NCBI GenBank assembly: GCA_019245115.1
Contig: JAFARZ010000220.1
Location: forward strand, 62,001-126,000
Reading direction: 5' to 3'
Length of the DNA stretch: 64,000 nucleotides
Source: Streptosporangiaceae bacterium
GTDB taxonomy: Bacteria > Actinomycetota > Actinomycetes > Streptosporangiales > Streptosporangiaceae
Position 1 is the first letter of the stretch. The number at the start of each line of letters is the position of its first letter. Under the pieces are notes generated by a model. That model was not told the origin of the DNA. It did not search any database and saw only the letters and a program-made list of their open reading frames with translations. Below, one piece after another: positions 1,284 through 50,640 of this stretch. The position numbers and the translations under genes were made by a program.

Positions 1284-2456
1284 ATGGTTACCATGAGCCG
1301 GCAGCAGGCCGCTGACGCGGTCGCGAAAGCGCAGGCCGAACGCGACACGATCCAGTCCAACCTGCTGGATCTGGACGGCAGCTTCGGCAAGCGGCTGCTT
1401 ACCGGCGCGCAGCTCACCGGGACGACCAAGCAGCGCTGGGACACCGCGGCCGCCACCCTCGCCGTGCTCTGGGACACCTACGCGACATACTCGTCCGTGG
1501 TTGACCGTGCCGTAACGCTGGTGGCGGGCAAGCTGGGTCAGCGTGAGCTGACCGAGGTCACCGGCCTGCTCACCCTGCCGTCGGTGGAGGTGACCCGCGG
1601 TCCCGCCCCGCTGGGCCGCCGCGACCTGGCCGACACCGGCCGGGACCAGCTCACCTTGTCCGCCGCCGTGGCGCGGATGCGTACCGCCTTCGCCGAGGTC
1701 GCCGATCTCGTGGCCGCCGCCGAGCAGGCCTGGAACAGCGTGGCGGGTCCGCTGGACGCCGCCGCGGCGGATCTGGCCCACGCCGACTCCCTGGGCGACG
1801 AGGCCCTGGCCGCCGAACTGGCCGAAGTGCGGGCCGAACTCGACCGGCAGCGCGCCGCGCTCAACAGCGACCCGCTCGTGGCTCAGGTCACCGCCGCGAG
1901 CCGGGTCCGCGACCGGGCCGCCGCGGTCGCTGCCAAGGCCGCCGAACTGGCCCGGGTCCGCGCGGGCGCGGTCGCCCGCATAGCCGCCCTCCGCGCGGAC
2001 GCCGACGCCGCCCGTACCGCACGGGACGACGCCGTCGCGGCCGCCCAGCGCGTGGCGGCGAAGATCGCCGGCGTGCCGCCGGTGCCGGACTTCGGGGTCG
2101 ATCCCGCGACCCGCCTGGCCCGGCTGGACGCGCTGCTCGCCGCCGGCCGCTGGACTCGGCTGAGTTCGGAGCTGGATCTCCTGGAGAACGAGCTCACGTC
2201 CGCGGCGCTTCAGTTCAATGACGCCGAACGTACGGTGGTAACACTTCTGAGCAAGCGCGACGAGCTACGCGGGCTACTCGACGCGTACAAAGCGAAGGCC
2301 GGGCGCCTGGGCGCCGCGGAAGATCCAGATCTTGCCCGCCTGTATGACCAGACCAGGGAACTCTTGTGGACGGCGCCGTGCGACCTGACCGCCGCGGCGG
2401 ACGCGGTCACCCGTTATCAGCAGGCCGTGCTTGCGATAGGAGCGCGACGGTTATGA
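1284..2456 (+). CDS. Ala-rich coiled-coil protein between glnH and pknG
   Basis: A 390-residue, almost wholly helical protein with heptad-like Ala/Leu/Arg/Asp runs (for example around residues 170-260) and no signal peptide, membrane segment or enzymatic motif that I recognise. A second ATG lies three codons in, so the start is uncertain by that much. It begins 3 nt after glnH and its TGA overlaps the pknG ATG, so it is almost certainly translated with both. Mycobacterial pknG loci lack a gene here. A cytoplasmic scaffold or regulator linking the receptor to the kinase is an inference from position only. Confidence 0.75.
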   Translation: MVTMSRQQAADAVAKAQAERDTIQSNLLDLDGSFGKRLLTGAQLTGTTKQRWDTAAATLAVLWDTYATYSSVVDRAVTLVAGKLGQRELTEVTGLLTLPSVEVTRGPAPLGRRDLADTGRDQLTLSAAVARMRTAFAEVADLVAAAEQAWNSVAGPLDAAAADLAHADSLGDEALAAELAEVRAELDRQRAALNSDPLVAQVTAASRVRDRAAAVAAKAAELARVRAGAVARIAALRADADAARTARDDAVAAAQRVAAKIAGVPPVPDFGVDPATRLARLDALLAAGRWTRLSSELDLLENELTSAALQFNDAERTVVTLLSKRDELRGLLDAYKAKAGRLGAAEDPDLARLYDQTRELLWTAPCDLTAAADAVTRYQQAVLAIGARRL

Positions 2457-4930
2457 ATACGTGTGGTAGTTGCGGGGGCACGATCGAGGACGGCTACTGC
2501 ACGGTCTGCGGCCTTGCGGCCGTGCCCGTTGCCGCCGCGGCCGGAGGCCCAGGCCAATCTAGCGCCGCGGCCGGAGGCCCAGGCCAATCTAGCGCCGCGG
2601 CCGCGGTGGGAGCTGGCACGCCATCGAGTCCATCGGTATCTTCCAGTCCATCCGCGACGGGCGCCTCATCGGTCGCATCAGGCACATCAGGCATGTCAGG
2701 CACGTCTGGTACGTCGGGCGCGTCGGGTGGCTCGGGTTCGCGGCGCAGTGGCTCGCGGCGTTCCAGCGGGCGGTCGGCCCGCGGCAGGCTCGGGGCCGGG
2801 CTGGTGGACATCCCGCCGGTGGCGTACCGCGATCCGTCCACGGCGGTTCTCGCGGACCCGCAGGTGCCGGAGAACCGGCGGTTCTGCGGCAACTGCGAGC
2901 AGCCGGTGGGCCGGAGCCGCGACGGCAGGGCCGGGCTGACCGAAGGATTCTGCCGGAACTGCGGCACCCGGTTCTCGTTCACGCCCAAGCTGGCGCCCGG
3001 CGACCTGGTCGCCGGGCAGTACGAGGTCCTGGGCTGCCTGGCCTTCGGCGGCCTGGGCTGGATCTATCTGGCCCGGGATCACAACGTCAGCGACCGCTGG
3101 GTCGTACTCAAAGGCCTGCTCAACACCGGAGACGCGGACGCCATGGCCGCCGCCGTCGCCGAGAGGCAGTTCCTGGCCCAGGTCGAGCACCCGAACATCG
3201 TGCGGATCTACAACTTCGTCCAGCAGGCCGGGGCCGGCTACATCGTGATGGAGTACGTCGGCGGCAAGTCGCTGAAGGAGATAAGGCGCCCAGGGCCGGT
3301 TCCCATCTCCCACGCCCTGGCGTACGCGATCGAGGTGCTGCCCGCGCTCGGTTACCTGCACGACCGCGGCCTGGTGTACTGCGACTTCAAGCCGGACAAC
3401 GTCATACAGACCGAAGAGCAGCTCAAGCTCATCGACATGGGCGGCGTGCGGCTGGTCGACGGCGACGGGCCGATCTATGGCACGGTCGGCTATCAGGCGC
3501 CGGAGATCGAGACCGAAGGCCCGTCAGTGTCTTCGGACCTGTTCACCGTCGGCCGTGCGCTGGCCGTGCTGACCTTCGACTTCAAGGGTTACCAGGGCGG
3601 TTACAAGTTCAGGCTGCCGGAAGGCATACCGCTGCTCGCCGAGCAGGAGTCGTTCGCGCGCCTGCTCCGCCGGGCGACCAACGCCGATCCGGGCCGCCGC
3701 TTCGGCTCGGCCGGGGAGATGGCGGAGCAACTGACCGGAGTGCTCCGCGAGGTCCTGGCGGTAGCCGACGGCACCCCGCGCCCGGCGTTCTCCACCGTGT
3801 TCACCCCGGAGATCCAGGCCATCCAAGGGGGGGCCGGGGGGATGGGTCCTCCCGGAAGCGGGGGGGTCACCGGGGGGGTCGTCCCCCAGGGGGATAAACC
3901 GAGCGTGACGGAGATCGTCGGCGGTCTCCCCATGCCGCAGGTGGACCGGACCGACCCGGCGGCCGGGTTCCTCGCCACGTTCGCCGGCCTCGACCCCGTC
4001 CAGCGCGTCGCCGCGTTGTCCGGTGCCGTGGCTGGCGAGGGCGGCGTCCCGCCCGATGTGGCGGCCTCACCGGAGACCAGGCTCGCGCTGGCCCGGGCCA
4101 TGCTGGATGTCGGCGACGCGGAAGGCGCCGGCGGCTTCCTGGCCGACCTGGCCGCCGACGATCCCGGCGACTGGCGGATCGCCTGGTACGACGGCCTGCG
4201 CCGGCTCCTTTCAGGTGATCCGGCGGCCGCACGCGGTGCGTTCAGCGCCGTCTACGACGAGCTACCCGGCGAACTCGCGCCCAAGCTCGGCCTGGCCTTC
4301 GCCGCCGAAGCCGCCGGCGACGCGGCTACGGCCGACCGCTACTTCCGCCTGGTCTGGACCGTGGATCACTCGCACATCAGTGCCGCGTTCGGCCTAGCCC
4401 GTGCCTGCCTGGCGGCCGGGGATCGCCTCGGCGCCATCAACGCACTGGCGGCGGTGCCGGAGACGTCGAGCCACTACGCCGCGGCCCAGATCGCCGCGGT
4501 GCGGATCCTCGTCTCGCCCGGCGTCAGCGGAGACGACCTGCGGGCGGCCGACGGCCGGCTCGGCAAACTGGCCCTGGACGAGGCCCGCCGCCAGCAGCTC
4601 ACCGTGGAGATCCTGCGTGCCGCGCTGGACTGGGCCGCCGCGGCCGGAGGCCCAGGCCAATCCAGCGCCGCGGCCGGAGGCCCAGGCCAATCCAGCACCG
4701 CGTCACCCGCTGGTGCCCCGGGCGCCGGGTCTTCGCAGGCTGCTAACGTCGTTCCGCGATCACGGTCCGGCTCTGATGGCATGATCCTCGGCTGCGAACC
4801 GAACGAGCGCGCGCTGCGCTTCGGTCTCGAGCGCGGCTACCGCGCGCTGGCCCGGCTCACGCCGGACCGTCAGCGCCGGGTCGAGCTGGTTGACATGGCC
4901 AACGCGGTCCGTCCGAGGACCTGGACTTGA
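2453..4930 (+). CDS. pknG: PknG-type Ser/Thr protein kinase with zinc ribbons and TPR domain
   Basis: An 825-residue soluble kinase. In order: an N-terminal zinc ribbon (C4, C7, C16, C19), a Gly/Ser/Ala linker with a 30-bp DNA minisatellite, a rubredoxin-like double CxxC module (about residues 143-170), the kinase domain (about 185-436; glycine loop AFGGLG, Lys in VLKGLL, catalytic VYCDFKPDN, DMG in place of DFG), a poly-G-encoded linker, and a C-terminal TPR-like helical domain (about 500-825). Rubredoxin-kinase-TPR is diagnostic of PknG, which in mycobacteria phosphorylates FHA proteins such as GarA and controls glutamate metabolism. The start at 2453 overlaps the previous stop (ATGA). It is longer than M. 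tuberculosis PknG because of the linkers. Confidence 0.95.
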   Translation: MNTCGSCGGTIEDGYCTVCGLAAVPVAAAAGGPGQSSAAAGGPGQSSAAAAVGAGTPSSPSVSSSPSATGASSVASGTSGMSGTSGTSGASGGSGSRRSGSRRSSGRSARGRLGAGLVDIPPVAYRDPSTAVLADPQVPENRRFCGNCEQPVGRSRDGRAGLTEGFCRNCGTRFSFTPKLAPGDLVAGQYEVLGCLAFGGLGWIYLARDHNVSDRWVVLKGLLNTGDADAMAAAVAERQFLAQVEHPNIVRIYNFVQQAGAGYIVMEYVGGKSLKEIRRPGPVPISHALAYAIEVLPALGYLHDRGLVYCDFKPDNVIQTEEQLKLIDMGGVRLVDGDGPIYGTVGYQAPEIETEGPSVSSDLFTVGRALAVLTFDFKGYQGGYKFRLPEGIPLLAEQESFARLLRRATNADPGRRFGSAGEMAEQLTGVLREVLAVADGTPRPAFSTVFTPEIQAIQGGAGGMGPPGSGGVTGGVVPQGDKPSVTEIVGGLPMPQVDRTDPAAGFLATFAGLDPVQRVAALSGAVAGEGGVPPDVAASPETRLALARAMLDVGDAEGAGGFLADLAADDPGDWRIAWYDGLRRLLSGDPAAARGAFSAVYDELPGELAPKLGLAFAAEAAGDAATADRYFRLVWTVDHSHISAAFGLARACLAAGDRLGAINALAAVPETSSHYAAAQIAAVRILVSPGVSGDDLRAADGRLGKLALDEARRQQLTVEILRAALDWAAAAGGPGQSSAAAGGPGQSSTASPAGAPGAGSSQAANVVPRSRSGSDGMILGCEPNERALRFGLERGYRALARLTPDRQRRVELVDMANAVRPRTWT
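2534..2600 (+). repeat. 30-bp in-frame minisatellite, first pknG cluster
   Basis: Two exact 30-bp units (2534-2563, 2564-2593) plus a 7-bp partial third. Each begins GCCGCGGCCGGAGGC and encodes AAAGGPGQSS in pknG. The same unit recurs at 4637 in this gene and, divergent at its end, at 8771. Confidence 0.95.
3828..3897 (+). repeat. Poly-G-rich stretch in the pknG linker
   Basis: Several runs of six or seven G in about 70 bp, encoding a Gly/Pro/Val-rich linker between the kinase and TPR domains. The frame stays open across it. The runs are slippage-prone and resemble the G-run hairpins seen in spacers of this window. Confidence 0.7.
4637..4699 (+). repeat. 30-bp in-frame minisatellite, second pknG cluster
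   Basis: Two 30-bp units (4637-4666, 4667-4696) nearly identical to those at 2534, differing by one base (AATCC for AATCT), again encoding AAAGGPGQSS, here near the C-terminal part of the TPR region. Confidence 0.95.
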
Positions 4931-4932
4931 AC

Positions 4933-4979
4933 GGCTCTAACCTGGCTGAGCGCAGCGAGGCCTTGGCGCGGAGGGGATT
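4933..4979 (+). repeat. Dispersed repeat carrying the ribosome-binding site of the PP2C gene
   Basis: Contains GAGCGCAGCGAGGCCTTGGC followed by GCGGAGGGGATT, directly before the GTG at 4980. The same sequence recurs at 13318 (opposite strand), 22794, 23542 and 23595. Its GGAGG end supplies the Shine-Dalgarno sequence here. Confidence 0.85.
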
Positions 4980-6137
4980 GTGAGCGAGCGAACGCGAGCG
5001 GAGACGATAGCTGCTTGCCCAGCCTGCGGAGAGCCGACCGGGCCGGGTGACGCGTTCTGCGAGAAATGCGGTACCGAGCTGGCTCCGGCCGTGGTGAGCA
5101 CCGGCACGCCCGGGTTCGTACCGAGCTGCCCGGTCTGCTCGGTGGACCCGTCCATACCTCAGCCGGTCGCGATCACCGCGGACGGGTACTGCGAGTCGTG
5201 CGGCCGCAAAGTGCCGACCGGACGCGACCATACCGAGCTCGACCTCGGCGTGCTCGCCGGCGTTACCGACCGCGGCATCCGGCATTCACGCAACGAGGAT
5301 GCTATGGCCCTGGCCACCGCGGAGACTCCGGCCGGCCCGGTGGCGATCGCCGTGGTCTGTGACGGCGTGTCTAGCTCGCCCCGGCCGGATGACGCGTCGC
5401 TGGCCGGCGCCCAGGCCGGTGTGCGGGTGCTGCTCAACTCCGTGCGTGTCGGTGACGGTCCGCGCAACGCCTCGCTGGCCGCGGTGCGCACCGCCGCGGC
5501 GGAACTGGCCGGTCTCGCCGGTCCCGGCGGCGCGCCGTCCGCCACCTACGTATCGCTGGTCGTCGGTCCCGATCCGGTTCCCGGCGCAGCCGCCGATTCC
5601 GGTCCGGCCACCAGTCCGGACCCGGACGTCGGCACGGGTCCGGATCCCGGATCCGATGCCGTCACCGCCGACTCGCCTGCCACCCCCGCCTCGCGGCCCA
5701 GTTCGGGCGCGGTGACAGTGTGCTGGCTCGGTGACAGCCGGGCCTACTGGCTGTCCGCCGAAGGCTCCAGGCGCCTCACCACCGACGACTCGCTCGCCCA
5801 GGAGATGATCGCCGCGGGCCTGGCGGACGAGGCCGAGGCGATGGCCAGCCCGCAGGCGCACGTGATCACGCGGTGGCTCGGTGCCGACATCGCCGAACCA
5901 CAGGCACGAATCACCCGGTTCGAGCCGACCGGACCGGGTGTCGTGCTGGCCTGCTCCGACGGTCTGTGGAATTACCTGCCGGAGGCCGCCGAACTGGCCG
6001 AGCACGCGCTGCCGGCCGCCGGGACCGACCCGCTGCGCGCCGCACGCGAACTGGTGCAGTTCGCCATTGATGCCGGCGGCATGGACAACATCACCGTGGT
6101 GCTGGTGCCGTTTCCCCTGAGAAGTTCGGTTACATGA
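4980..6137 (+). CDS. PP2C-type Ser/Thr protein phosphatase with N-terminal zinc ribbons
   Basis: A 385-residue protein with two CxxC...CxxC zinc ribbons (about residues 13-34 and 57-81) and a PPM/PP2C catalytic domain from about 90 on. Metal-binding and family motifs are present: TDRGIRHSRNEDA, VVCDGVSSS, WLGDSRAYWL, ACSDGLWNYL and GGMDNITVV. A Gly/Pro/Asp-rich insert (about 200-240) separates the two halves of the domain. The GTG start follows GGAGGGG supplied by a dispersed repeat. As the only phosphatase in the locus it is the natural eraser for PknG and for the facing kinase; its zinc ribbons resemble those of PknG and the FHA protein. Confidence 0.93.
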   Translation: MSERTRAETIAACPACGEPTGPGDAFCEKCGTELAPAVVSTGTPGFVPSCPVCSVDPSIPQPVAITADGYCESCGRKVPTGRDHTELDLGVLAGVTDRGIRHSRNEDAMALATAETPAGPVAIAVVCDGVSSSPRPDDASLAGAQAGVRVLLNSVRVGDGPRNASLAAVRTAAAELAGLAGPGGAPSATYVSLVVGPDPVPGAAADSGPATSPDPDVGTGPDPGSDAVTADSPATPASRPSSGAVTVCWLGDSRAYWLSAEGSRRLTTDDSLAQEMIAAGLADEAEAMASPQAHVITRWLGADIAEPQARITRFEPTGPGVVLACSDGLWNYLPEAAELAEHALPAAGTDPLRAARELVQFAIDAGGMDNITVVLVPFPLRSSVT

Positions 6138-6153
6138 GCGGGAGTTCAGTTAC

Positions 6154-7482
6154 ATGAGCGAGTCCGGCTTCACCGTCGACATCGACCAGAACCAGTACCT
6201 GCCCGAGGGCGGCCGCACGGTCAGCGCGGTCGTGACGGTGACCTCGGCTGACAACATGACCCTGCCCGGCGGTCCGGCAGCTGGCGTAGGCGGCGGCCCG
6301 GGCAGCGGTTCCGCCGAGATCATCATCGTGGACTGCTCGGGTTCGATGGACGTCCCGCAGACGAAGATGGCCTCGGCGCGGGCGGCGGTCGCCGCCGCCG
6401 TCGACGTGGTCCGCGACGGCACGGCGTTCGCGGTCGTGGCCGGCACGAGCACATCGTGGCCGGTGTACCCCACCGATGGCACCATGGCGATCGCGAACCA
6501 GTCCACCCGTGAGGCGGCCAAGCGCGCCGCGGCCGGCCTGCGGGCCAGCGGCGGCACCGCGATCGGCCAGTGGCTGCGGCAGGCATGCGCGATCTTCGAG
6601 ACGCACCCGGCCGAGCTCCGCCACGCGATCTTGCTCACCGACGGCAAGAACCAGCATGAGCGGCCCGAACAGCTCAACGCCGCGATCGCCCGGTGCGAGG
6701 GCCTGTTCAGCTGCGACTGCCGTGGTGTCGGAACCGACTGGGAGGTCGCCGAGCTCCGCCGGGTCTCCACCGCGCTGCTCGGCACGGTGGACATCGTGCC
6801 GGATCCCGCCGGGCTGGCCGCGGATTTCACCACGATGATGGAGAACGCGATGGGCAAGCAGGTCGCTGATGTGGCGCTGCGCGTCTGGACGCCGCAGCAC
6901 GCCGCCATTCAGTTCGTCAAGCAGGTGGCGCCGGAGGTGGTCGACCTCACCGAGCGACGCAGCCAGTCGGGTCCGCAGGCGGGAGATTACCCCACCGGCG
7001 CGTGGGCGCCAGGGGAGAGCCGTGACTACCACCTGTCTGTGGCGGTTAATCCTGCTGGTGTGGGGCAGGAGATGCTAGCCGCGCGGGTGAGCCTGGTGGC
7101 GTCCTCGGCGTCCGGGTCCGAGGTGCTGGGGCAGGGGCTCGTCCGCGCGGTCTGGACCGATGACACAGAGCTGTCCACCAAGATCAACGCGCGAGTCGCG
7201 CATTACACCGGCCAGGCCGAGATGGCGGACCTTATCCAGGACGGCCTCGAGGCGCGCAAGCAGGGCGACGAGGAAACCGCGACCGCCAAGCTGGGCCGCG
7301 CGGTTGCGCTGGCCGAGGAATCCGGCAACGACGACACCGCCAGGCTGCTGGCCAAGGTGGTCGACGTGGTCGACGCCGCTACCGGCACCGTCCGGCTGAA
7401 GAAGGCGGTGGCTGACGCCGACGAGATGGCGCTCGACACGAGATCGACAAAGACGGTCCGGGTGAGGAAAGAGCAGGCGTAG
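6154..7482 (+). CDS. VWA-domain protein of the PknG locus
   Basis: A 442-residue cytoplasmic protein (no signal peptide) with a von Willebrand A domain. The MIDAS motif DCSGS lies at about residues 60-64, the MIDAS Thr in SGGTAIG at about 135, and the conserved Asp in LLTDGKNQ at about 158. A beta-rich middle part and a charged helical C-terminal region (about 350-442) follow. It starts 16 nt after the phosphatase gene; the junction contains an imperfect 20-bp tandem duplication that repeats the ATGAGCG start. VWA proteins bind partners through the MIDAS metal, so a role in complex assembly or as kinase substrate fits, but is inferred. Confidence 0.9.
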   Translation: MSESGFTVDIDQNQYLPEGGRTVSAVVTVTSADNMTLPGGPAAGVGGGPGSGSAEIIIVDCSGSMDVPQTKMASARAAVAAAVDVVRDGTAFAVVAGTSTSWPVYPTDGTMAIANQSTREAAKRAAAGLRASGGTAIGQWLRQACAIFETHPAELRHAILLTDGKNQHERPEQLNAAIARCEGLFSCDCRGVGTDWEVAELRRVSTALLGTVDIVPDPAGLAADFTTMMENAMGKQVADVALRVWTPQHAAIQFVKQVAPEVVDLTERRSQSGPQAGDYPTGAWAPGESRDYHLSVAVNPAGVGQEMLAARVSLVASSASGSEVLGQGLVRAVWTDDTELSTKINARVAHYTGQAEMADLIQDGLEARKQGDEETATAKLGRAVALAEESGNDDTARLLAKVVDVVDAATGTVRLKKAVADADEMALDTRSTKTVRVRKEQA

Positions 7483-7490
7483 GGGGCGGC

Positions 7491-8318
7491 ATGGCCATAT
7501 GTCCGGACGGTCACGATTCGGTCAGCGAAGACTATTGCGACGTCTGCGGCATGCGGATAGGCGGCGCCCCCACCGGGTCCGCCACTGGATCAGCCGCCGG
7601 GTCAGCCCGAGCCGGCTCGGCTCCGGCCGGACCCGTCACGTCCGCGCAGGCCGCTTACCCGCCCGCCGCCGGCCGAGGCTCTACGTCGTCAGCGGCCGCC
7701 TGCCCGCAGTGCGGCTCGTCCACGACTCCGGGCGCATTCTGCGAAGTCTGCGGCTACAACTTCGCCGCCGGCGCACCGTCCTCGTCCAGCGCTTCGCCTA
7801 CCGCATCCGCCTCCTCGCCCCTCCCGTCCGGCCCAGCCCCTGTTCCGGACACCCGCTCCGCTTCTCCCTCCCCGCTGACCCCAGGAACCACGTCAGTCAC
7901 AGCCCCTCCGGTCTCTACCGGCCCCTGGACTGCGGTGGTGGCAGCGGACCGCGGCTACTACGAGACGATGCAGGCCGCGACCGAGGGAGACGGGGCGGAC
8001 ATTCCGTTTCCGCCCTACTGCCCGGAACGCCGGTTCCAGCTCGCCGGCGACGAGATGCGTATCGGCCGGCGCAGCCCATCTCGCGGACTCGAGCCGGAGA
8101 TCGACTTGACCGGCCCGCCGACCGATCCCGGCATCAGCCGCCTGCACGCCGTCCTGATCGCCACTTCCGACGGTGGCTGGGCGGTTCTCGACCCCGGCTC
8201 CGCCAACGGCACCCAGGTCAACGGTGCCGACATCCCGACCAGCCAGCAGGTCCCCCTCCACGACGGCGACCGCATAAGCCTAGGCGCCTGGACCACCATT
8301 ACCATTCACACCTCCTGA
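7491..8318 (+). CDS. FHA-domain protein with zinc ribbons
   Basis: A 275-residue protein. Two short CxxC zinc ribbons (about residues 4-20 and 76-92) and Ser/Ala/Pro linkers precede a C-terminal FHA domain (about 180-275) with the phosphothreonine-pocket motifs RIGRRS, SRLHA and NGTQVNG. FHA domains bind phosphothreonine peptides. PknG in mycobacteria phosphorylates the FHA protein GarA, so this is the likely reader or substrate of the locus, although I see no GarA-type ETTS phosphorylation motif and the architecture differs. RBS AGGGGG lies just before the ATG. Last gene of the rightward run. Confidence 0.92.
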   Translation: MAICPDGHDSVSEDYCDVCGMRIGGAPTGSATGSAAGSARAGSAPAGPVTSAQAAYPPAAGRGSTSSAAACPQCGSSTTPGAFCEVCGYNFAAGAPSSSSASPTASASSPLPSGPAPVPDTRSASPSPLTPGTTSVTAPPVSTGPWTAVVAADRGYYETMQAATEGDGADIPFPPYCPERRFQLAGDEMRIGRRSPSRGLEPEIDLTGPPTDPGISRLHAVLIATSDGGWAVLDPGSANGTQVNGADIPTSQQVPLHDGDRISLGAWTTITIHTS

Positions 8319-8431
8319 CCCGCCCACGCCGCCCGCACCCGCCCGCGCGCCCCCCGCGGGCCACCCGAAGCTCGCGGCCCGTTACCCCAGATAGCGACCA
8401 GTTCGACTTGTCACCCGCTACGTCGCACATG

Positions 8432-9856
8432 TCACCCGCTACGTCCATTCGTCGTGATCAGGGGCAGTCGCACGGTGAAGTTCACCCACAGCGCGTGGAT
8501 GAATCCCGCCGGCCAGATGGCGAAGGCCAGGACCACCCCGGCCGTGCCGGGGACCCCGATCGGGCCGTTGACCGAATCCGGCGCGGTCAGTATGAGGCAG
8601 AACGCAGCGATCATCAGCGCAAGGTAGGCGGTGGCGACAGCCAGCCACCGGCCCCGCCCATGCCTGATCGCGATGTAGCCGAACGACATCCAGGCGCCCA
8701 TCCCGAGCGGCAGCAGAGTCGGCAGGATCCACAGGCTGTGCCGTAGTGCCCGGCGCGGCCGGGGCAGCGCCGCGGCCGGAGGCCCAGGCAGATTCGGCAC
8801 CGCGGCCGGAGGCCCAGGCAGATTCGGCACCGCGGCCGGAGGCCCAGGCAGGTTCGGCACCGCGGCCGGAGGCCCAGGCAGGTTCGGCACCGCGGCCGGA
8901 GGCCCAGGCAGGTTCGGCGCCGCGGCCGGCCTGTCGCCCGTGGTCTCCGGGCGCACCCGGACCAGCAGCCGCGAATAGAGCTGCATCCCGCTCGCGTCAC
9001 CCGCCGAGGGGCTGATGTCGCCGAGCGGGCTCAGCGGGCCGACGTAGGGCAGGAGCCGGTCGTAGACTTCCCGCGCGCCCGACGGCCGCCAGGCCGGGTC
9101 CTTCTGCAGCAGCTGCCACACGAGCTGTACCAGCGGCACGTCGAGGTCACCGCGGCTCAGCGGGGCTGGCGCCTGCTCCAGATGCATGCGCATCAGCGCG
9201 GCGGGTGAGGTGGCGCTGAACACCGGCTCGCCGGACAGCAGTTCGTACAGCAGGCAGCCCAGCGCGTACAGGTCGGTCCGCGGCGTCGTGGGGAGGTTGT
9301 GCAGTTGCTCCGGCGCCATATAGGCGGGCGTGCCGACCGCGACACCCGTGCTGGTGATCCGCTGGCTGACAATGCCGGCCACGCCGAAGTCCAGGATCTT
9401 CGCGGTCCCGTCCGCGGTCACCATCACGTTGGCCGGCTTGATATCCCGGTGGATCACCCCCCGCTCATGCGCGACCGCGAGCACGGCGGCGACCTGCGCG
9501 CCGATCGCGGCCACCCACGGGACCGGCAGTGGCCCCTGCTCGGCGATCAGGTCGCTGACCGTGCATCCGCCGACCAGCTCCATGACCAGGTATAGACCGC
9601 CGTCGTATTCTCCCGCGTCGTAGATCGCGGGCACGCCCGGATGCGGCAGGCCGGCGGTCACGGCCGCCTCCCGCGTGAACCGCCGCACGCCGTCGTCCGG
9701 CTTCGCGTGCGTGGCGAGCGTGTTGTAGGTCAGCAGCTTCACCGCGACCGGCCGGCCGAGCCGCTCGTCCTGTCCCTCCCACACCTGGCCCATCCCGCCG
9801 CGGCCGAGCGGGCTGATCAGCCGGTAGCGGCCGGCGAGGAGTGCGTCGTTCCCCAC
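8432..9856 (-). CDS. Ser/Thr protein kinase with repeat linker and C-terminal membrane segments
   Basis: A 474-residue Hanks-type kinase: LGRGGMGQVW glycine loop, VAVKLL lysine, GVIHRDIKPANVM catalytic loop, LDFGVAG and a GTPAYMAPEQL activation segment, catalytic domain about residues 8-270. A Pro/Leu/Ala linker made of five 30-bp repeats (PNLPGPPAAV) follows, then about four hydrophobic segments (about 375-465), so the kinase faces the cytoplasm. The GTG start lies 11 nt after the stop of the methylase-like gene, suggesting one transcript. It converges on the FHA gene. It is not PknB-like: there are no PASTA domains. Confidence 0.93.
   Translation of the reverse strand: MGNDALLAGRYRLISPLGRGGMGQVWEGQDERLGRPVAVKLLTYNTLATHAKPDDGVRRFTREAAVTAGLPHPGVPAIYDAGEYDGGLYLVMELVGGCTVSDLIAEQGPLPVPWVAAIGAQVAAVLAVAHERGVIHRDIKPANVMVTADGTAKILDFGVAGIVSQRITSTGVAVGTPAYMAPEQLHNLPTTPRTDLYALGCLLYELLSGEPVFSATSPAALMRMHLEQAPAPLSRGDLDVPLVQLVWQLLQKDPAWRPSGAREVYDRLLPYVGPLSPLGDISPSAGDASGMQLYSRLLVRVRPETTGDRPAAAPNLPGPPAAVPNLPGPPAAVPNLPGPPAAVPNLPGPPAAVPNLPGPPAAALPRPRRALRHSLWILPTLLPLGMGAWMSFGYIAIRHGRGRWLAVATAYLALMIAAFCLILTAPDSVNGPIGVPGTAGVVLAFAIWPAGFIHALWVNFTVRLPLITTNGRSG
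8771..8930 (+). repeat. Five-copy 30-bp minisatellite in the membrane kinase
   Basis: Five units (8771-8800 to 8891-8920) plus a 10-bp remnant. Each has CGCGGCCGGAGGCCCAGGC, as in the pknG clusters, then RATTCGGCAC or GGTTCGGCAC. On the plus strand the unit runs in the same direction as in pknG, but the host gene is on the minus strand, so here it encodes PNLPGPPAAV. Confidence 0.95.
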
Positions 9857-13317: not shown

Positions 13318-13359
13318 TCCCTCCGCGCCTAGGCCTCGCTGCGCTCGGCCGGCTTGGGG
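13318..13359 (-). repeat. Dispersed Shine-Dalgarno repeat, opposite-strand copy
   Basis: On the minus strand this reads GCCCCAAGCCGGCCGAGCG then CAGCGAGGCCTAGGCGCGG and AGGGAAG, matching the copies at 4933, 22794, 23542 and 23595. No start codon follows it on the minus strand, so this copy has no translation role. Confidence 0.8.
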
Positions 13360-13394
13360 CCGCGGCGGGATCGCCGCCCCCAGCCGTAGCCCGT

Positions 13395-22733: not shown

Positions 22734-22861
22734 GGCGAGCGAATGCGAGCGCCGCGGCGGTTGCCGTCCCGGAGGGGCGGCGGTTCCCGCCGTGGCTCCA
22801 AGCCGGCTGAGCGCAGCGAGGCCTGGGCGCGGAGGAATTCGAGCCTTGGCGCGGAGGGAAA
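22734..22861 (+). repeat. Dispersed repeat with Shine-Dalgarno end, before coaE
   Basis: A unit of about 105 bp: a GCGGCGAGCG-rich half, then GGCTCCAAGCCGG, GAGCGCAGCGAGGCC and GGAGGAA, followed by a partial second copy of the last 20 bp. The GGAGGG of the partial copy sits 7 nt before the coaE ATG. An almost identical unit lies at 23482. Confidence 0.9.
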
Positions 22862-23481: not shown

Positions 23482-23639
23482 CGGCGAGCGAAGCGAGCGC
23501 CGCGGCGGTTGCCGTCCCGGAGGGGCGGCAATTCCCGCCGTGGCTCCAAGCTGGCCGAGCGCAGCGAGGTCTTGGCGCGGGAGGGAAACACCGTGGCTCC
23601 AAGCCGGCGGAGCGCAGCGAGGCCTTGGCGCGGAGGAAT
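23482..23639 (+). repeat. Dispersed repeat, one and a half copies before uvrB
   Basis: A full unit (23482-23587) nearly identical to that at 22734, then a second copy of its last 45 bp (23595-23639) ending GGAGGAA. The final GGAGGAA precedes an 8-codon mini-ORF, not uvrB itself. Confidence 0.9.
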
Positions 23640-49983: not shown

Positions 49984-50121
49984 CATAGCGGGCACATGGG
50001 CGCTGTCTTTGTGGAAGAAAAGAGCCCTTCGGAACAAAAGGCGCCGGAAACCGGCGCCCAATCCTCCGCGAAGCTCTTTTCTTCCACCTCGTCCACCGCA
50101 GCCACCGTCACATAACGGCCA
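49984..50121 (+). repeat. 138-bp palindromic intergenic element, copy B
   Basis: Bounded by CATAGCGGGCA (49984-49994) and CATAACGGCCA (50111-50121). The inner hairpin GGCGCCGGAAACCGGCGCC is perfect (8-bp stem). Around it, GTGGAAGAAAAGAGC and GCTCTTTTCTTCCAC form a perfect 15-bp outer stem. The loop CGGAAACCG, the GAACAAAAGG block and the ends are shared with copy A. No gene covers it. Confidence 0.92.
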
Positions 50122-50320
50122 TACACTGACGAATCAGTGCCAGTCCACGACACGCCCCAAACGCGATTGTTGGAAATGTTCACATAATGCGGACAATTAA
50201 CCGCACGGCAGCAATCACCGCACAAACCTGCTGATCCAGTCCAGCAAATCTGGATATGGGGCGGTAGGGGGGGAGCGGTCGGCGGCCAAGCCTGCCCGGC
50301 CCGATCCGGCTTCGAGCCCG

Positions 50321-50640
50321 GTGCCAGCCAAGCGGGGTGCCAGCCAAGGCCGGTGCCTGCTAAGCGGGGTGCCGGCCAAGCGGGGTGCCGGCCAAGCGGG
50401 GTGCCAGCTAAGCGGGGTGCCAGCTAAGCGGGGTGCCGGCCAAGCCCCGGTGCCAGCCAAGCCGGGTGCCAGCCAAGGCCGGTGCCTGCTAAGCGGGGTG
50501 CCAGCTAAGCGGGGTGCCGGCCAAGGCCGGTGCCTGCTAAGCGGGGTGCCGGCCAAGCGGGGTGTCGGCCAAGCGGGGTGCCCGCTAAGCGGGGTGCCCG
50601 CTAAGCGGGGGTGTCGGCTAAGCCGGGTGTCGGCTGAGCG
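50321..50640 (+). repeat. 16-bp minisatellite, about 20 units
   Basis: Units close to GTGCCRGCYAAGCGGG run for 320 bp with two or three small indels. The 16-bp period is not a multiple of three, so it is not a protein repeat, although one frame stays open. The rest of the 921-bp spacer (49746-50666) holds only element copy B. Confidence 0.95.

Follow-up and report, generated by a model that had tools for sequence, protein, structure and literature searches.

A 30-bp repeat lies in three clusters within two protein kinase genes of a Streptosporangiaceae bacterium, in a 64,000-nt stretch of its genome (GenBank assembly GCA_019245115.1, contig JAFARZ010000220.1, positions 62,001 to 126,000 of the forward strand). 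We call this whole stretch the window and give positions in its coordinates. We consider it probable, at roughly 0.8, that these clusters are part of a mobile-like repeat family, young and restricted to the species, whose 30-bp unit has entered a few hundred places seamlessly, with a single orientation, at the motif CGC^NG (the caret marks the point of insertion). In its behaviour the repeat resembles a mobile DNA, one among the smallest known, and the pattern is explained without any function for the encoded peptide. In the window, the 19-bp core of the unit, CGCGGCCGGAGGCCCAGGC, has nine exact copies, all on the + strand (2536, 2566, 4639, 4669, 8771, 8801, 8831, 8861 and 8891), which form three clusters with a period of 30. 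Tandem Repeats Finder (TRF) reports the same period at 2533-2603, 4636-4702 and 8770-8929. Shuffled sequences gave a mean of 0.35 matches even at 3 mismatches, and none of 100 shuffles reached nine. The original prediction, made from the letters of the window, had described one unit in three clusters with a single DNA direction, and the exact core matches and TRF agree on this.

The source genome is a 9.51-Mb draft in 444 contigs, 90.6% complete and with 6.2% contamination. Allowing up to 2 mismatches, the core occurs in it 437 times (235 copies on one strand, 202 on the other), against 7 for a reversed-pattern control, and so the repeat is not confined to the two kinase genes. With a 31-nt pattern extended into the 3' part of the unit (GCGGCCGGAGGCCCAGGCMRATYCRRCRCNG, up to 3 mismatches), 422 copies were counted here, with none in 19 relatives and none in the controls. 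The family comparison comprised 343 genomes, among which the source genome is the only member of its genus; each of the other 342 has 0-3 core matches at 1 mismatch, which is the control level. Among the matches listed in a wider scan of a genome collection for the core, only single chance ones appear, and viral contigs, searched for the element as a carrier, gave no match. Since the other family genomes stand at background and none of them belongs to the same genus, the expansion is limited to the source species or genus. The prediction of a repeat that spreads in coding DNA, as opposed to a peptide under selection, is borne out: besides the 437 copies, all six reading frames are used (see below), and the relatives lack the insertion instead of carrying the same peptide in different codons.

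For a closer view we took a sample of 853 kb, composed of the window and 94 further regions, which holds 139 clusters and 226 copies. In comparisons of filled and empty sites, each unit is a seamless 30-bp gain with no host bases lost. At locus L097 the unit sits inside a copy of another dispersed repeat, family F, which there reads GAGCGC, then CGCGGCCGGAGGCCCAGGCCAATTCAACAC, then AGCGAGG; intact copies of the family read GAGCGC|AGCGAGG (16 matches), and the one at 22755..22835 (+ strand) in the window represents an empty site for L097. At L014 an empty copy lies in the same locus as the filled site, and apart from the 30 bp the two match at 100% identity over 82 nt. Protein genes give the same picture. 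Without its 30 bp, the asparagine synthetase (AsnB) host sequence of L060 measures 48 nt, equal to both orthologues, while a non-ribosomal peptide synthetase adenylation domain (L089) and a polyketide synthase enoylreductase (L018) each have exactly ten additional residues relative to solved homologues. The filled and empty pairs show no target-site duplication beyond one ambiguous C. The target CGC^NG is found at 112 of the 139 loci, compared with 2% of random positions, and is alike in coding and non-coding DNA. Position 28 of the unit may be A or G, but the matching base of the target is almost always G; thus, positions 0-29 make up the unit, and CGC is part of the target.

The unit consists of CGCGGCCGGAGGCCCAGGC followed by MRATYCRRCRC. 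The 19-bp core is near invariant across the sampled loci, although these were picked mostly by exact core, which leads to an underestimate of the mutation rate of the core. In the 11-bp 3' part, variation is found at positions 19, 20, 23, 25, 26 and 28, mostly in the form of transitions that are almost unlinked. Single units make up 86 of the 139 clusters and the others have 2-5 units, with a spacing of 30 bp in all 87 sampled cases. Within an array, neighbouring internal spacers agree fully in 29 of 34 comparisons, against 3% of random pairs. This excess points to local growth, and local tandem growth of the arrays is thus shown statistically. The last spacer departs from the rule: it is unlike its neighbour in 43 of 53 arrays, chiefly at positions 28, 26 and 25, yet with 1.9 differences it is nearer to that neighbour than chance would have it (3.1). 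At its left end an insert creates the junction CGC|CG, in its own right a perfect target; if another unit entered there, next to the first, and was then duplicated, the spacer pattern of the arrays would result. We also considered that the last spacer might be copied from the target, and rejected this when pairwise mutual information revealed hardly anything apart from boundary effects at positions 29-31. Decayed units (e.g., CGCGACCGGAGGTCCAGGC) were found at L059:3488, L056:4045, L048:7900 and L032:4000, either solitary or adjoining intact ones, and the 30-bp family is therefore not uniform in age.

Coding status was inferred with our own codon model and not taken from annotation. A strict rule, which demands coding signal on both sides, places 78 of 131 sampled loci inside coding DNA, against 78% of random CGCNGY sites, a moderate depletion (p=5e-6). 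Under a lenient rule the count rises to 115 of 131, which had suggested no gene avoidance at all; we rejected that interpretation and preferred the strict rule because the lenient one counted certain members of other repeat families as coding too. The sense frames read AAAGGPGQ(F/S)(S/N)(A/T) (+0), PRPEAQANS(A/T) (+1) and RGRRPRPIQ(H/R) (+2), the antisense frames LN(W/L)PGPPAA(A/V), AE(F/L)AWASGRG and RRIGLGLRPRR, and one gene in L054 holds units in both orientations. With all six frames in use, the spread works on DNA and not through a selected peptide. The frames are, however, unequally represented. Relative to random CGCNGY sites their ratios are 2.09 (+0), 0.98 (+1) and 0.35 (+2) in the sense direction and 0.63, 0.48 and 0.33 in antisense (chi-square p=5e-7). 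Expressed as density against random sites, the values are 1.6 for the +0 frame, 0.25-0.75 for the remaining frames and 1.84 where DNA was not called coding. This makes the +0 peptide near neutral, and the other frames are purged to differing degrees. The rarest frame is one that reads the TTCA of the element as TGA, and 49% of clusters are stop-free there; in the LN(W/L)PGPPAA frame the allele coding for Leu is enriched over that for Trp (p=2e-4). It is shown statistically that selection at the protein level filters the insertions, the AAAGGPGQxSA frame being the best tolerated. The prediction that the repeat spreads without harming proteins consequently stands mainly for +0; the other frames range from neutral to about threefold depleted relative to random target sites, so that many insertions have evidently been purged.

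A Pfam scan of 30 proteins, with domain coverage of about 55%, supplied 29 insertions with domain context, 15 inside Pfam domains and 14 outside. Given that coverage, there is no linker bias at the level of Pfam domains, and the expectation that insertions always lie in linkers fails in 15 of the 29 checked. The interrupted domains include Asn_synthase, Rieske, AMP-binding, HATPase_c, the acyl-CoA dehydrogenase middle domain and the LacI sugar-binding domain. Within domains, the insertions apparently sit in surface loops.

The clusters of the window illustrate these placements. The first two reside in a gene for a PknG-like kinase (2453..4930, + strand; open reading frame and Pfam), whose protein combines rubredoxin, kinase and PknG_TPR domains (PF16919, PF00069 and PF16918) and matches the structure of Mtb PknG (2pzi) at E=9e-172. 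Cluster 1 (2536..2595, +) is made of two units CGCGGCCGGAGGCCCAGGCCAATCTAGCGC in the Ala/Gly/Ser-rich N-terminal region, a stretch that is disordered in the AlphaFold model (residues 24-108, pLDDT <50). Cluster 2 (4639..4698, +) also has two units, with spacers CAATCCAGCGC and CAATCCAGCAC, and falls in a loop between helices for which Mtb PknG (2pzi) has about 4 residues. In the AlphaFold model this loop (732-773) is of low confidence and disordered between confident helices 709-729 and 784-801. Cluster 2 splits the PknG_TPR domain of Pfam, and homologues show a gap there. Both clusters are in frame +0 (AAAGGPGQSS). Cluster 3 (8771..8920, +) lies in a Ser/Thr protein kinase gene on the opposite strand (8432..9856, -; open reading frame, with PF00069 at residues 11-263). 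It comprises five units with spacers AGATTCGGCAC (twice), AGGTTCGGCAC (twice) and AGGTTCGGCGC, and is found between the kinase domain and the membrane segments, where the antisense frame reads PNLPGPPAAV. Translation of the open reading frames confirms both predicted peptides. The companion claim, that all three clusters lie in linkers, does not hold for cluster 2, which interrupts a domain and not an inter-domain linker. In a close relative (L142, G002), the PknG gene is cut to its N-terminal and C-terminal ends, with about 750 residues missing and the neighbouring genes intact.

With regard to mechanism, a recombinase or a transposase, acting in trans, would catalyse the insertion. Pairing of the tandem junction CRC|CG with the target CGC|NG would give the products CGC|CG and CRC|NG, and spread through genes would be possible since 30 bp preserves the reading frame. 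The junctions are best accounted for by a trans-acting recombinase whose substrate is a 30n form, either circular or multimeric. We put forward only tentatively the complete scenario, in which a site-specific recombinase inserts the 30-bp element seamlessly through 30n intermediates, genes being little avoided as the frame is kept. Several observations weigh against a mobile element. No significant hairpin or palindrome was detected in the unit (DNA fold z-scores -0.71 and -0.07), nor is a terminal inverted repeat visible, the ends being CGCGG and CRC. A search for Y1/IS200/RAYT transposases (PF01797) gave 0 matches in the 90.6%-complete draft and was positive in 5 of 14 control genomes. The 3' 11 bp are far more variable than the core, and the last spacer often diverges from the inner ones; neither is expected if a single fixed element is simply cut and pasted. 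Furthermore, the species is represented by one genome only, so that movement itself was not observed. The main rival dispenses with a dedicated enzyme: by polymerase template switching, or microhomology copying, a nascent CGC end would pair with the CRC|CG junction of an array, copy one or more units and return to the target at NG. This is a possibility that we take seriously but doubt. It agrees with the short homology at the junctions (CGC/CRC and NG/CG), with the net gain of 30n and with the failure to find a transposase; private spacers are shared in arrays, which copying out of an array or inside it would produce, and the last spacer diverges more toward the 3' junction. However, homologies of 3-5 bases are ubiquitous, and other repeats should then spread likewise. 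Template switching also leaves unexplained the more than 400 copies of this one 30-mer and a 3' junction that is nearly always at the same point of the unit.

The remaining alternatives are considerably less probable than either process. Mobilisation of a repetitive extragenic palindrome (REP or REPIN) or of a miniature inverted-repeat transposable element (MITE) by a RAYT or another insertion sequence (IS) transposase would suit the small size, within the REP range, and the high copy number; we judge it improbable, given a mainly intragenic instead of extragenic location, no significant palindrome, no PF01797 gene and no target duplication. A useful peptide maintained by selection, such as a flexible linker of the AAAGGPGQ type, could be read from the twofold enrichment of the AAAGGPGQxSA frame over random target sites and from the hydrophilic, flexible character of the peptide. 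Yet the antisense LNWPGPPAA and AELAWASGRG and the Arg-rich RGRRPRPIQR are found too, the L054 gene has both orientations, non-coding copies share the 30-bp unit and the target, the +0 density is close to that of unassigned or non-coding DNA and so near neutral and not favoured, and relatives have no such sequence, all of which makes this origin very unlikely. A DNA uptake or genome-marking sequence (DUS/USS or Chi-like) under selection at the DNA level is just as hard to credit. Uptake sequences are about 10 bp long and are generally taken to originate through point mutations in sequence already present, whereas the empty sites here show 30 new bases inserted (a net +30 bp), in addition to 30-bp tandem arrays. 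The hundreds of intragenic copies with a frame preference would accord with the intragenic bias of uptake sequences (PMC2346458). Least probable of all is an artefact of assembly or library preparation: the fragmented draft and its contamination invite the suspicion, but the 139 sampled loci have unique flanks, spacer variants are locus-specific, some copies are decayed, and both the target motif and the frame-dependent retention speak against it.

Among known systems, the nearest kinds are the small dispersed repeats of cyanobacteria and the Rickettsia palindromic elements. The former, reportedly described by Elhai in 2008, are about 20-30 bp long, occur in high copy number and insert precisely, including into other repeats; they are mainly extragenic or within other repeats, and no transposase is known for them. 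They are the closest in size and share with the 30-bp unit short, precise insertion at many sites. In contrast, the present family belongs to a different phylum and probably differs in sequence, its copies are mostly intragenic, and it shows a frame filter and 30-bp tandem growth. The Rickettsia palindromic elements and the protein-coding palindromes of Wolbachia are in-frame and tolerated in unrelated genes and read as selfish (PMC10969869; PMC2229807, the latter with reference to Ogata 2000 and Abergel 2006). The 30-bp unit is likewise inserted in frame within unrelated protein genes. The Rickettsia elements are, however, palindromes of 105-150 bp, each encoding a conserved peptide (PMC10969869; PMC2229807), while the unit has 30 bp, no significant hairpin, six frames and no target duplication. 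REPs are 20-40-bp extragenic palindromes linked to RAYT (Y1 transposase) genes (PMC3733652; PMC3116915); size range and dispersal are alike, but the 30-bp unit is intragenic and not significantly palindromic, and no Y1 gene was found. Bacterial MITEs such as ERIC and the 107-bp Correia/NEMIS are small non-autonomous elements fused in frame to genes (PMC2229807). They measure about 100 bp or more and have terminal inverted repeats and a target duplication, neither of which the unit possesses. The arrays resemble coding minisatellites, or variable number tandem repeats (VNTRs), in their in-frame tandem units, whose number rises and falls locally, as the 2-5 units and shared private spacers attest, but a minisatellite of the ordinary sort does not found new, unrelated loci by the hundred.

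The genome contains further repeats. Copies of family F (...CCAAGCCGGCCGAGCGCAGCGAGGCCTTGGCGCGGAGG) in the window are located at 4933-4975, immediately 3' of pknG, and at 13318-13380, 22755-22835, 23503-23586 and 23591-23636, and are mostly non-coding. A palindromic dispersed repeat around GGCGCCGGAAACCGGCGCC, with GGAAGAAAA arms, was identified at window 50040-50058 and at L030, L043, L092, L106 and L113; it is MITE-like, and 0 of 8 checked copies are coding. The near-perfect palindrome CGGATGAATGTGGCAGCCACCCGGTTATAACCGGGTGGCTGCCACATTCATCCG (L028, L035, L039, L088, L091, L096 and L117) is also non-coding and MITE-like, and CCGATGGCACCATC is common to a further repeat family besides this palindrome. 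Approximately 20 tandem copies of a 16-bp unit, GGTGCCGGCCAAGCGG, occupy window 50320-50634. Finally, the motif ACCACCG[TC]CCGTTCG, which in some copies belongs to a palindrome with CGAACGGCGGTGGT, occurs at L020, L032, L034, L053, L054, L060, L095, L097, L101, L104, L121 and L122, and the coding rule called 8 of these 12 coding.

The 30-bp family amounts to a natural linker-scanning experiment, in which insertions of ten residues, hundreds in number and with six known versions of the peptide, have been placed in real proteins, and the empty sites allow a direct measurement of the tolerance for each version. It also illustrates a route by which selfish DNA can pass from intergenic space into genes, with a unit whose length is a multiple of three and which contains few stop codons. 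If it is true that a dedicated enzyme moves the unit, an enzyme that inserts 30 bp seamlessly and directed by a motif would be both new and useful.
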